Assembly: GCA_018699935.1 (NCBI GenBank)
Contig: JABISF010000034.1
Span: forward strand, 1-64,000
Length of the DNA stretch: 64,000 nt
Direction of reading: 5' to 3'
DNA from: Flavobacteriaceae bacterium
GTDB taxonomy: Bacteria; Bacteroidota; Bacteroidia; Flavobacteriales; Flavobacteriaceae
This document shows positions 1 to 54,336 of the stretch, piece by piece. Below the pieces are notes generated by a model. That model was not told the origin of the DNA, did no database searches, and saw nothing but the letters and a program-made list of their open reading frames with translations. The position numbers were made by a program, and so were the translations under genes. Within the stretch, counting starts at the first letter, position 1, and every line of letters begins with the position of its first letter.

Positions 1-24
1 AAAAAGAAGATTTATCCCGTTGTG

Positions 25-110
25 TACTGAAGGCGGGACTTGAACCCGCACGAACATTACTGCTCATTGGATTTTAAGTCCAACGTGTCTACCAATTCCA
101 CCACTTCAGC
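25..110 (-). tRNA. tRNA-Leu (anticodon TAA)
   Basis: Read on the minus strand, the gene opens with GCTGAAG and closes with CTTCAGT plus an A discriminator, giving a 7-bp acceptor stem that ends in a G:U pair. It has the D-arm sequence GGTGGAATTGGTAGAC, an anticodon arm GGACTTAAAATCC with anticodon TAA, a long variable arm typical of class II leucine tRNAs, and a GGGTTCAAGTCCC T arm. CCA is not encoded. It lies 14 nt downstream of tRNA-Gly on the same strand, so the two are probably co-transcribed. Its terminator, if any, is at or beyond the window edge. Confidence 0.95.
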
Positions 111-124
111 TTGGACTAAAAAAG

Positions 125-196
125 AGCGAAAGACGGGATTTGAACCCGCGACCCTCACCTTGGCAAGGTGATGCTCTACCCCTGAGCTACTTTCGC
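125..196 (-). tRNA. tRNA-Gly (anticodon GCC)
   Basis: The minus strand reads GCGAAAG, then the D arm TAGCTCAGGGGTAGAGC, the anticodon arm TCACCTTGCCAAGGTGA (anticodon GCC), the T arm GCGGGTTCAAATCCCGT and the acceptor CTTTCGC followed by T. All four stems pair. It is the intact copy next to the defective tRNA-Gly-like fragment at 220-269. Confidence 0.95.
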
Positions 197-219
197 ATTC
201 TTATTTCAATCTCTCTGGA

Positions 220-269
220 GCGACCCTCATCCGCCTTTGGCGGATTATGCGCTACCCCTGAGCTACTTT
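220..269 (-). pseudogene. Defective tRNA-Gly copy with its anticodon arm replaced by a palindrome
   Basis: On the minus strand, 252-269 is identical over 18 nt to the tRNA-Gly acceptor/D-arm region (AAAGTAGCTCAGGGGTAG), and 220-229 matches 10 nt of its anticodon 3' stem and variable region (TGAGGGTCGC). Between them the normal anticodon arm is replaced by the palindrome at 229-245. The 5' end of the acceptor, the T arm and the 3' acceptor strand are missing, so no functional tRNA can form. It lies 23 nt upstream of the intact gene, inside the presumed tRNA transcript. The same arrangement recurs at 54288-54336. Confidence 0.8.
229..245. repeat. 17-nt palindrome inside the tRNA-Gly fragment
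   Basis: The sequence ATCCGCCTTTGGCGGAT pairs as a 7-bp stem with a 3-nt loop. It sits exactly where the intact tRNA-Gly has its anticodon arm. Just upstream of the fragment, at about 274-284, lies GCCTGCCTATCG (minus strand), which resembles half of the unrelated palindrome at 54294-54313. Confidence 0.75.
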
Positions 270-282
270 TACGATAGGCAGG

Positions 283-290
283 CAAATGTA
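283..290 (-). promoter_or_regulatory. Candidate -7 box for the tRNA-Gly/tRNA-Leu transcript
   Basis: The minus strand reads TACATTTG, a match to the Bacteroidota -7 consensus TAnnTTTG. It lies directly upstream of the tRNA-Gly fragment and downstream of the mutS stop. No clear TTG was seen at the -33 position. If correct, the defective fragment is the first thing transcribed. Confidence 0.45.
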
Positions 291-339: not shown

Positions 340-2925
340 TTATTTCTGCAGTTTGCGTTTAATTTCATTCAATTGCAAAAGGGCTTCAACGGGAGTGAGC
401 GTGTCAATATCCAATTGCTGAATGGCATCACGGATGGATTCCAACAAAGGATCATCCAAATTAAAAAACTGCAACTGCAATCCGGAATTTTTCTCCCCTG
501 TTTTTAAATCTTTCCCATGAGCAGCTTCCAACTGCTTGAGCTTGTTCTTGGCCGATTGCAATACATGCTGGGGCATTCCTGCCATTTTGGCTACATGAAT
601 TCCAAAACTGTGGGCGCTACCACCAGCCACCAACTTGCGCAAAAACAACACCTGATCTTTGGATTCCTTCACCGCCACATTAAAATTTTTAATCCTTGGA
701 TAGCTCCGTGACATTTCGTTGAGCTCGTGATAATGGGTTGCAAAAAGCACTTTGGGGCGATACGGATGTTCATGCAAATATTCTGCTATGGCCCATGCGA
801 TAGAGATTCCGTCGTAGGTACTTGTTCCCCGTCCAATTTCATCCAATAACACCAAACTGTTTTCGCTGATATTATTGAGTATAGAAGCGGTTTCGTTCAT
901 TTCCACCATAAAGGTAGAGGCACCCATCGAAATATTATCACTCGCACCCACACGAGTAAAAATTTTGTCAACCACGCCCAAAGTGGCAGCGGTGGCAGGA
1001 ACATAACTCCCCATTTGAGCCAGTAAACAGATCAGTGCTGTTTGGCGTAATAAGGCTGATTTTCCGGACATATTGGGCCCCGTAATCATGATGATTTGCT
1101 GCTTTTCGCGATCCAATTCCAAATCGTTAGAAATATAGGGCGTTCCCAAGGGCAATTGTTGCTCAATCACCGGATGCCGCCCCCCTTTGATACTGAGGCT
1201 GGTGGTCGTTATAAGTTTCGGAGCACAATAGGAGTGCTTTTGAGCGAGCTGTGCAAAACAGGCCAAAACATCCAGTTGTGCCACCCCGTAGGCATTGGAC
1301 TTAAGGACTTCCAATTGGCTTTGCAGACTTCCTAGTAAATCTTGAAATAATTGCTGTTCCAATGTAGCAATCTGATCCGCCGCCGTTAATATTTTTACTT
1401 CAAACGCTTTTAGCTCTTCGGTGATATACCGCTCGGCATTGACCAGCGTTTGCTTGCGAATCCAATCTTCGGGCACCTTGTCTTTGTGGGTATTACGAAC
1501 TTCGATATAATAACCAAATACGTTGTTGAAGGCTATTTTTAGGGAGGGAATTTGAGAGCGTTCGGTCTCCCGTTCCAAAAGGGCATTCAAATGACCTTTG
1601 GTGTTTTGTTGCAGCTGGCGCAACTCGTCTAAAGTTTCAGAAAACCCCTCGGCGATGACCTTTCCTTTGCTAACCAAAACCGGTGCCTCTGGATGCAGAG
1701 TTTTTTCTAAAATTTCAATCAAAGGGGACGCCTCCTGCATTTTTCCCAAAAACATTTTTAAGGCAGTATGGCTGGACGCCTTAATAGCCACTTTCCACGG
1801 TTCCAATTCTCGCAGGGAATGCTGCAATTGTACCAAAGCTCTTGGACTGATTTTCTCCGTGGCAATTTTCGCCATAATCCGTTCCAAGTCCACCATACGG
1901 GATAGGGTTTCTCGAGTATTTTGGTGGAGGGTTGTGTCGGCTAAAAAAGCCGCGATGGCTAAATGCCGCTGTTCGATATGTTTTTTTTCTTTAAGGGGAA
2001 ATGCCAACCAACGCCGGAGCAAACGACCGCCCATAGCGGTTTTGGTTTGATCCAAAACGTCTATAAGAGCAACTCCCTCAGGATGAGTGGGTTGAAACAA
2101 TTCTAAATTGCGTACCGTAAACCGATCCATCCAAACATAGGCATCGTGTACAATGGGTTGAATTCGAGTGATGTGCTTGCATTGGTGGTGTTGTGTATCC
2201 GACAAATAGTGTAGCACCGCTCCGGCGGCGCTGCAGCCCGCAGTCATGTCCTGAACACCAAAACCAGCAAGCGTTTTGGTTTGAAATTGTTGGGTCAACT
2301 TTTCCAAAGCAGTGGAAGATTCAAAAGCCCAATCTTCCATAAAAAAACAATGATATTGCGTTCCAAACTGCTCTAAAAACTTTTTCTTTTGCGGTTTGGG
2401 CACCAATAACTCACTGGGAGCAAAACTTTGCAGCAACTGATCCATTTCCTCTGCACTGCCTTGGGCACACCAAAAATCTCCCGTGGAGATGTCCAAAAAG
2501 GAAGCCCCAATCGGGTTCCCCAACTGTATGGCTCCCAAATAGTTGTGCTTTTTCTGATCCAACACATCATCATTTAAAGACACACCGGGAGTAACCAATT
2601 CGGTCACCCCGCGTTTGACAATGGTCTTGGTGAGTTTTGGATCTTCCAACTGATCGCAAATGGCCACCCGACATCCGGCACGAACCAACTTGGGCAAATA
2701 GGTGTTGAGCGAATGGTGCGGAAAACCTGCCAAAGCCGTTTCACTTGTACTTCCTGCGCCGCGTTTGGTAAGGATAATTCCCAAAATTGAAGCGGCTTTG
2801 ACAGCGTCCGAACCAAAGGTTTCATAAAAATCTCCAACACGAAACAATAACAAAGCATCCGGATACTTTGCCTTGATCTGGTTGTATTGTTTCATTAATG
2901 GAGTTTCCTTTGCCGTTTTTGCCAA
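340..2925 (-). CDS. mutS: DNA mismatch repair ATPase MutS
   Basis: An 861-residue protein of normal MutS length. MutS dimers recognise mismatches and small loops in DNA and recruit MutL. The mismatch-wedge motif is visible at residues 33-35 (FYE in GDFYETFG). The core and clamp regions follow, and the C-terminal ABC-type ATPase has a Walker A motif GPNMSGKS near residue 614, then a Walker B region LVLLDEIGRGTSTYDG and an ATHYHEL switch. The start MAKTAKETPLMKQY matches the family N-terminus. The gene is transcribed away from the TrmH-family gene. It ends about 50 nt before the candidate tRNA promoter, with no intervening gene. Confidence 0.98.
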   Translation of the reverse strand: MAKTAKETPLMKQYNQIKAKYPDALLLFRVGDFYETFGSDAVKAASILGIILTKRGAGSTSETALAGFPHHSLNTYLPKLVRAGCRVAICDQLEDPKLTKTIVKRGVTELVTPGVSLNDDVLDQKKHNYLGAIQLGNPIGASFLDISTGDFWCAQGSAEEMDQLLQSFAPSELLVPKPQKKKFLEQFGTQYHCFFMEDWAFESSTALEKLTQQFQTKTLAGFGVQDMTAGCSAAGAVLHYLSDTQHHQCKHITRIQPIVHDAYVWMDRFTVRNLELFQPTHPEGVALIDVLDQTKTAMGGRLLRRWLAFPLKEKKHIEQRHLAIAAFLADTTLHQNTRETLSRMVDLERIMAKIATEKISPRALVQLQHSLRELEPWKVAIKASSHTALKMFLGKMQEASPLIEILEKTLHPEAPVLVSKGKVIAEGFSETLDELRQLQQNTKGHLNALLERETERSQIPSLKIAFNNVFGYYIEVRNTHKDKVPEDWIRKQTLVNAERYITEELKAFEVKILTAADQIATLEQQLFQDLLGSLQSQLEVLKSNAYGVAQLDVLACFAQLAQKHSYCAPKLITTTSLSIKGGRHPVIEQQLPLGTPYISNDLELDREKQQIIMITGPNMSGKSALLRQTALICLLAQMGSYVPATAATLGVVDKIFTRVGASDNISMGASTFMVEMNETASILNNISENSLVLLDEIGRGTSTYDGISIAWAIAEYLHEHPYRPKVLFATHYHELNEMSRSYPRIKNFNVAVKESKDQVLFLRKLVAGGSAHSFGIHVAKMAGMPQHVLQSAKNKLKQLEAAHGKDLKTGEKNSGLQLQFFNLDDPLLESIRDAIQQLDIDTLTPVEALLQLNEIKRKLQK

Positions 2926-53910: not shown

Positions 53911-53935
53911 AAGCCGACCTATAAAAAGTCGGCTT
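53911..53935 (-). terminator. Intrinsic terminator after tRNA-Leu(CAA)
   Basis: The stem AAGCCGAC/GTCGGCTT surrounds a 9-nt loop and is followed on the minus strand by TTTATG. It starts 5 nt after the tRNA 3' end. The stop codon of the overlapping GIY-YIG reading frame (53919-53921) falls inside this hairpin. Confidence 0.85.
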
Positions 53936-54272
53936 TGAAGTACCTTGGGTGGGAATCGAACCCACACTCCCGAAAGAACTGGATTTTGAATCCAGCGCGT
54001 CTACCAATTCCGCCACCAAGGCATTGTTTATATTTTTTGCGAATTTCGCGTAATTTTTCTTTTCCTACTCCTGATTTCCAATATTTTTCTCTCTCCCTTG
54101 CTTCAATTCTAGTTTCTATTATTTCAGAATATAATAACTCAAAAGGAGCGTATGGTTTTGTTATTCTTTCCCTACCGCTATTATGTCGTTTAATTCTTCT
54201 TGTTAAATTAGAAGTCAAACCCACATAAATATAATTTCTTTTTAAACTTGAAAGAGCATATACCCAAAACAT
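53919..54272 (-). CDS. GIY-YIG nuclease whose frame runs through tRNA-Leu
   Basis: The first ~83 residues form a complete single-domain GIY-YIG endonuclease: VYAL at 4-7, YVG at 16-18, LTRRIKRHN with the catalytic Arg, and the Glu of EAREREKYWKSG near 57. Such small proteins occur in many copies in Bacteroidota and lack a DNA-binding domain. The frame has no stop of its own: from residue 84 it translates the intact tRNA-Leu (CLGGGIGRRAGFK) and ends inside its terminator. It lies between a palindrome-interrupted tRNA-Leu fragment and the intact tRNA. RNase P cleavage would leave a stop-less mRNA. Mobility is inferred, not shown. Confidence 0.8.
   Translation of the reverse strand: MFWVYALSSLKRNYIYVGLTSNLTRRIKRHNSGRERITKPYAPFELLYSEIIETRIEAREREKYWKSGVGKEKLREIRKKYKQCLGGGIGRRAGFKIQFFRECGFDSHPRYFKADFL
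53941..54022 (-). tRNA. tRNA-Leu (anticodon CAA)
   Basis: The minus strand reads GCCTTGG at the 5' acceptor and CCAAGGT plus A at the 3' end, with D arm GGCGGAATTGGTAGAC, anticodon arm CTGGATTCAAAATCCAG (anticodon CAA), a long variable arm and T arm GTGGGTTCGATTCCCAC. It is intact. The GIY-YIG frame overlaps it completely, and a partial 5' copy of the same tRNA lies 266 nt upstream. Confidence 0.95.
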
Positions 54273-54287
54273 TTCAAAATATCAATT

Positions 54288-54336
54288 AGCGCGCCTGCCT
54301 GTCGGCAGACAGGTCTACCAATTCCGCCACCAAGGC
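54288..54336 (-). pseudogene. tRNA-Leu 5' fragment interrupted by a 20-bp palindrome
   Basis: On the minus strand, 54336-54314 is identical to the first 23 nt of tRNA-Leu(CAA), and 54293-54288 (CGCGCT) continues with the next 6 nt of the same tRNA. The two parts are separated by a clean 20-bp insertion with no target duplication and no lost base. After CGCGCT the similarity stops, and the GIY-YIG start codon follows 15 nt later. Confidence 0.85.
54294..54313. repeat. 20-bp palindromic element inserted in tRNA-Leu sequence
   Basis: CCTGCCTGTCGGCAGACAGG forms an 8-bp stem with one mismatch around TCGG; alternative 5-6 bp stems overlap it. It splits the tRNA-Leu fragment precisely. A related half-site (GCCTGCCTATCG) lies beside the tRNA-Gly fragment at the start of the window. 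Confidence 0.8.

Follow-up and report, generated by a model that had tools for sequence, protein, structure and literature searches.

The window, the whole 64,000-nucleotide stretch of DNA analysed here, opens contig C4 of a 2.17 Mb assembly (G000; 85 contigs, 88% complete). Close to its beginning a tRNA search placed two intact genes on the minus strand, tRNA-Gly(GCC) (124..196) and its downstream neighbour tRNA-Leu(TAA) (24..110), and on the upstream side, on the same strand, lies the mutS ORF (340..2925), which served as our tree marker. Directly upstream of tRNA-Gly, and likewise on the minus strand, we found an insert of 76 bases. In the direction of transcription it opens with a tRNA-like stretch, GTAAAAGTAGCTCAGGGGTAGCGCAT (247..272), a slightly decayed copy of nucleotides 1-26 of tRNA-Gly (acceptor 5' strand and D arm), which in the alignment scored 22 against tRNA-Gly and at most 11 in 60 shuffles. 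Sequence reading then gives a single A (246), followed by the palindrome ATCCGCCAAAGGCGGAT (ATCCGCC-AAA-GGCGGAT; 229..245), which was identified by pattern search and alignment, is predicted to fold as a hairpin, is assigned to class T and stands at the place of the anticodon arm. In its 17-nt form this palindrome occurs only once in the genome. The insert continues with GAGGGTC (222..228), read as a match to tRNA-Gly just past its anticodon arm, and ends in a 25-nt non-tRNA tail, GCTCCAGAGAGATTGAAATAAGAAT (197..221), which by alignment is related among five insert-bearing genomes.

A sequence-only reading had described a broken tRNA copy with a palindrome at positions 220-290; this anatomy is real and the coordinates are close. 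It had also proposed that the palindrome takes the anticodon arm's place, and we agree: the bases that follow the palindrome match the tRNA beyond that arm, and hence, as we read the sequence, the arm is replaced rather than merely interrupted, a reading made by eye at a stretch where the automatic alignment sets the tRNA row differently. The second copy is thus incomplete, with the anticodon arm replaced and the T arm and 3' acceptor strand absent. As had been stated too, no nuclease is present; the 76 bases contain no ORF and offer too little space for the GIY-YIG nuclease ORF that would characterize an autonomous free-standing homing element. The candidate promoter of that reading, TACATTTGC (282..290, minus strand, from sequence reading), stands in one respect, as the same site is found in relatives with an empty site, there directly 5' of tRNA-Gly. 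It is only a TAnnTTTG-like match, and the corresponding pattern, TANNTTTGC, occurs 14 times in the window, with no excess over chance.

The second palindrome-bearing tRNA locus of the window, at tRNA-Leu(CAA), has all the parts of a larger arrangement. Here, again on the minus strand, a copy of nucleotides 1-23 of tRNA-Leu(CAA) (54314..54336; alignment, shuffle test) is followed by a class C palindrome, CCTGTCTGCCGACAGGCAGG (54294..54313), which the alignment shows as a clean insertion after tRNA nucleotide 23, then by an 82-aa GIY-YIG nuclease core (54027..54272; ORF, Pfam) and finally by the intact tRNA-Leu(CAA) (53940..54022; tRNA search), into which the nuclease frame continues, to position 53919. 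This is the full-element layout, an 80-85-aa GIY-YIG ORF beside an intact tRNA with a palindrome-broken partial tRNA copy on its other side, and its nuclease belongs to the subfamily we term s1. We also observed a likeness, TTTTGAAAT, between the tail of the Gly insert and the leader of the Leu nuclease, which is given no weight in our argument.

The Leu nuclease has 80 relatives in named genomes, mostly of Bacteroidota together with some candidate phyla. An intact tRNA on the same strand lies within 700 bp at 70 of these 80; in 60 of the 70, the other side of the ORF has a partial tRNA copy that scores above every one of 100 shuffles. Of 114 loci entered, 95 had a tRNA that allowed an insertion test, and in 49 of them a stretch with a hairpin is placed cleanly between two neighbouring bases of the tRNA. 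The GIY-YIG frame reads on through the intact tRNA in 13 of 48 five-prime-type loci, as it does in the window (53919-54272, minus strand), and therefore proteins with tRNA-derived tails result. Nuclease relatives also occur in candidate-phylum (Patescibacteria-type) genomes (L113, L126, L128, L135 and L138), and several of these loci have tRNA copies and palindromes close by.

A second subfamily, s2, is found at tRNA-Met. Both nuclease ORFs, s1 and s2, match Pfam GIY-YIG as a single domain, and the median ORF lengths of the two subfamilies are 81.5 and 84 aa. An s2 query, which carried three initial residues foreign to its locus, gave matches at E <= 1e-8 in 63 of the 395 genomes of the order, a number that includes weaker s1 matches, the window's own among them. 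Among 30 loci read from this search, 22 had an intact tRNA within 700 bp, and tRNA-Met was the nearest in 15 of the 22. Tandem arrays of s2 nucleases were also observed, with 8 matches at L164 (G076:C34) and 5 in a row at L160 (G161:C1), spaced by about 365 bp. Neither tRNA nor palindrome accompanied four distantly related GIY-YIG genes found in the genus (L033, L066, L067 and L069).

We typed the palindromes in 118 rows, with four controls excluded from s1, and found that palindrome class follows nuclease subfamily. Class C was assigned in 63 of the 85 s1 rows, where the only three class T matches were in rows that are also class C; the 29 s2 rows comprised 17 of class T, two of class A, none of class C and 10 without a typed palindrome. 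These counts are lower bounds, as the patterns miss variants and many three-prime-type s1 rows typed as 'none' have a palindrome visible by reading, and they are given with no p-value because the rows are related by descent. The s1 nuclease type and its hairpin class accompany sequence from tRNAs for Leu, Ser, Arg and Val. At L174, L175 and L176, where the tRNAs are tRNA-Arg and tRNA-Ala and the nucleases s2-like or s1-like, we saw a third palindrome class (CCCGCCC...GGGCRGGG).

The palindrome of the Gly insert is of the s2 class, and s2 elements sit at tRNA-Met. In two other genomes that carry the Gly insert, G003 and G021, a 3' tRNA-Met fragment whose anticodon arm contains TCCGCCTGAGGCGGA lies after an s2 nuclease; an intact tRNA-Met precedes the s2 ORF in G021, and the G003 contig stops at that point. 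The Gly insert therefore has both its palindrome class and the affected arm in common with s2 elements. The fragment geometry differs, with a 3' fragment downstream in s2 elements at tRNA-Met and a 5' fragment upstream at tRNA-Gly. These observations bear on the proposal that the Gly locus is a decayed or nuclease-free version of the process seen at Leu(CAA). A nuclease-free version it is, in kind, as a sister class; a decayed copy of the Leu(CAA) element it is not, since its palindrome, TCCGCC-NNN-GGCGGA, is that of the s2 class at tRNA-Met, as against CCTGYCT..CAGG at Leu. Decay from a nuclease-bearing element at tRNA-Gly itself is a conceivable origin; we found no such element among the 395 order genomes with a strict pattern or among the 30 loci read in the s2 search. 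The strict Gly-insert pattern matched one of the 395 genomes, namely G000, and an s2 nuclease was not found in the 88% of this genome represented by the assembly.

In a genome-wide search for the 15-nt form of the palindrome, TCCGCCNNNGGCGGA, we detected seven sites in G000, six of them tRNA-linked. The pattern is found in 4 of the 38 genomes of the genus, and its reversed control has no occurrence in any of the 38, which excludes a chance palindrome. The tRNA search of G000 yielded 32 tRNA genes above the cut-off, of which 30 were made into loci and scanned; a partial tRNA copy with a palindrome occurred only at Gly and Leu(CAA), and copy scores above the shuffles at L003, L010, L018, L023 and L024 probably reflect adjacent tRNA genes. 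Beside tRNA-Trp (L199, G000:C67), the palindrome TCCGCCATTGGCGGA stands 22 bp upstream of the gene, without a clear tRNA copy. One class T site lies about 57 bp from tRNA-Met (L196, G000:C13), and three more lie inside 3' tRNA-Met fragments of one array (L198, G000:C58:1-900). The tandem units of this array, each 97-98 bp, consist of a terminator, the palindrome and a 3' tRNA-Met fragment, have no ORF and leave no space for a nuclease; the ends of the two contigs probably join into a single tRNA-Met array. We had considered ATGGAA in these units as a relic of a nuclease start codon and dropped the idea, as the similar GATGGAGGATTCATA precedes the palindrome in the nuclease-bearing locus L153. 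The suggestion that all tRNA loci of the genome be scanned thus brought to light further class T palindromes, while among the 30 loci the combination of partial copy and palindrome stayed confined to the two in the window; the claim that the pattern goes beyond chance is borne out by the tRNA-Met units and the tRNA-Trp palindrome, as well as by relatives.

The seventh site (L197, G000:C30) is intergenic with no tRNA beside it. Both there and at L200 (G021:C7), class T palindromes occur in intergenic repeats from which tRNA is absent; by their resemblance we take these repeats to be possibly attC-like.

Two such sites away from tRNA would fit the idea of the palindrome as a small mobile repeat in its own right, one that favours tRNA-like DNA and shares its hot spots with the nuclease, a separate passenger. 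So would the presence of two palindromes in some fragments, and the fact that the clean hairpin-bearing insertions of the 49 loci fall at several positions of the tRNA. Nevertheless, an independent repeat would not be expected to track nuclease subfamily by its class, and the palindromes lie in the partial copy, across the ORF from the intact tRNA; we consider this explanation very unlikely.

To compare the locus among relatives, we searched 25 genus genomes within a set of 40 and then all 38 of the genus, reading the loci individually. In the 31 congeners with a readable tRNA-Gly locus (G005, G019, G020, G045, G047, G048 and G052, in which it is not resolved, were left out of the count), the insert was present in 5 and the site empty in 26, so that the comparison called for by the sequence-only reading reveals both occupied and empty sites, as expected of a member of the element family. 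The carriers are G000, G040, G021, G003 (contig C68) and G043. G003 has a change in one arm of the palindrome, and in G043 the partial tRNA copy and the tail are present with no recognisable palindrome. G003 is a mixed assembly with two mutS contigs (L249, L250), C68 with the Gly insert and C44 with an empty site.

This distribution weighs on the idea that the fragment is a cis-regulatory leader of tRNA-Gly, such as a precursor hairpin under selection. Its position between a promoter-like site and the tRNA would suit such a role, as would its folding, which is better than that of shuffles (z -2.14). A leader under selection should not be missing in 26 of 31 congeners, nor have a palindrome mutated in one arm in one carrier and degraded beyond recognition in another, and we regard it as highly improbable.

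We placed the carriers on a tree built from MutS, whose 31 rows are an outgroup and 29 genus genomes, one of which was entered twice. They are scattered: no fewer than 4 changes are needed, and a single change sufficed in 0% of 200 bootstrap trees. Shuffled labels required 4.8 changes on average, so that the carriers are not clustered, and because of this scatter alone cannot tell gains from losses and also fits many losses. The stronger point is a mismatch in divergence. The insert of G000 is 88% identical to that of G040, 80% to that of G021 and 79% to that of G003a, while third codon positions in the same pairs are only 46-49% identical and the upstream flanks are inside the shuffle range. 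For G000 and G040 in particular, MutS residues are 71% identical, third positions 49% and the insert 88%, with the upstream flank at shuffle level; conversely, the sister pair G040 and G043 has 89% identical MutS and inserts of only 63% identity. Since the insert is 88% identical while third codon positions and flank are at background, we conclude from these sequence comparisons that the Gly insert probably moved sideways between species. Selection on the insert could be an alternative source of the high identity, and the tree itself is that of one marker gene from mostly incomplete and in some cases mixed assemblies.

The same data speak to ordinary tandem tRNA duplication, which had been named as what would overturn the pattern. 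Under this explanation tRNA-Gly was duplicated and its upstream copy degenerated into a pseudogene, whose anticodon arm gave rise to a palindrome or was invaded by one. G043, with its decayed upstream copy and no clear palindrome, looks like such a case, and the replaced stretch, CCTTGCCAAGG, is palindromic in itself. In some relatives, moreover, neighbouring tRNA-Gly-type copies stand close together. By itself, however, duplication fails to account for the scattered occurrence and the common palindrome class: the insert is far closer between distant species than are synonymous sites and flanks, the same palindrome class and arm recur in s2 elements at tRNA-Met in two carriers, the carriers have a non-tRNA tail in common, and the pattern is missing from 34 of 38 genus genomes while six of the seven G000 sites are tRNA-linked. 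We therefore judge it unlikely, though G043 suggests that a tRNA duplication may have come first and the palindrome later, as a separable addition.

We also looked for a vehicle among phages and plasmids and found none. Neither s1 nor s2 nucleases matched any of 50,697 phage records, s2 relatives were absent from one viral-contig scan, and the Gly pattern was not found in the viral contigs searched; the only s2 match in a plasmid-filed record was of 38.5%.

We think it likely that the Gly fragment belongs, as a non-autonomous member without a nuclease, to a family of GIY-YIG elements nested in tRNA genes. With this family it shares a partial tRNA copy adjoining an intact copy of the same tRNA and, inside the partial copy, a subfamily-linked palindrome, class T as in s2 elements. 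Behind this view stand observations on the anatomy, on the unoccupied sites in relatives, on the scatter of carriers over the tree, on an insert divergence that does not match that of the hosts, on the tie between palindrome class and nuclease subfamily, and on units without an ORF elsewhere in the genome. A full element would combine three parts: a partial tRNA copy broken by the palindrome of its subfamily, a bare nuclease some 80-85 aa long, and an intact copy of the tRNA, which would keep the host alive. We propose that the nuclease, acting in cis or in trans, breaks an element-free tRNA gene at a particular arm, and that repair from an element-bearing template then copies in the tRNA piece, the palindrome and, if present, the ORF, with a functional tRNA rebuilt at the junction. 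The palindrome, at the former site of the arm, would have a protective role, as the partial copy could neither fold as a tRNA nor be cut again. In the case of tRNA-Gly, the ORF-less insert may spread between species by recombination through identical tRNA-Gly sequence, and an s2-type nuclease perhaps acted on it in trans originally. Most likely, then, the elements work like free-standing homing elements; the Gly insert itself, having no nuclease, is not autonomous. A more specific and quite unlikely version holds that the palindrome is the cognate recognition hairpin, as DNA or RNA, of the bare 80-85-aa nuclease, which has no separate DNA-binding domain, with the adjoining tRNA piece as target address; copies that lack the nuclease, the Gly insert among them, would then be mobilised in trans.

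Several known systems resemble parts of this tRNA-nested arrangement. In T-even phages, the GIY-YIG nuclease SegB is reported to drive amplification by recombination of a unit of tRNA and nuclease into tandem repeats (PMC13096335). The likeness to SegB and the free-standing GIY-YIG homing endonucleases of these phages, as far as that account goes, lies in a nuclease beside tRNA genes and in tandem arrays, whereas the present elements reside in bacterial genomes, have no match in the phage records, encode only the bare domain and carry a palindrome-broken partial tRNA copy, a palindrome of a kind not mentioned for SegB in the portion of the account available to us. Group I introns with homing endonucleases in bacterial tRNA genes likewise associate a nuclease gene with tRNA genes, judging from the part of the source available (PMC3984707). 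The elements described here have no intron, and the tRNA stays intact while a separate partial copy is added. REP palindromes and their RAYT transposases also pair a palindrome class with an enzyme subfamily and include enzyme-free copies; the present enzyme, in contrast, is a GIY-YIG nuclease rather than a tyrosine transposase, and the elements are tRNA-linked. Partial tRNA copies flank the insert of tRNA-integrating genomic islands as well, but the 76-base Gly insert has no integrase and its tRNA copy carries a palindrome. The closest solved relatives of the s2 query are the single GIY-YIG domains of UPF0213 and SLX1, which are weak matches (E 0.005). Of the two, SLX1 has further domains and serves as a structure-specific repair nuclease; to our knowledge neither protein has a link to tRNA. 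In the open-licence literature searched, we found no description of a palindrome-broken tRNA copy combined with a GIY-YIG nuclease in this layout.

If our reading is right, a tiny kind of selfish element is common in tRNA genes across Bacteroidota and several candidate phyla, and in it a minimal GIY-YIG nuclease and a matching palindrome spare the tRNA by way of one intact copy. The layout of the element also explains odd annotations, in which nuclease frames run into tRNA genes. The Gly insert adds that there are copies without a nuclease and that these appear to travel from one species to another, and would thereby offer a simple case of trans-mobilisation.
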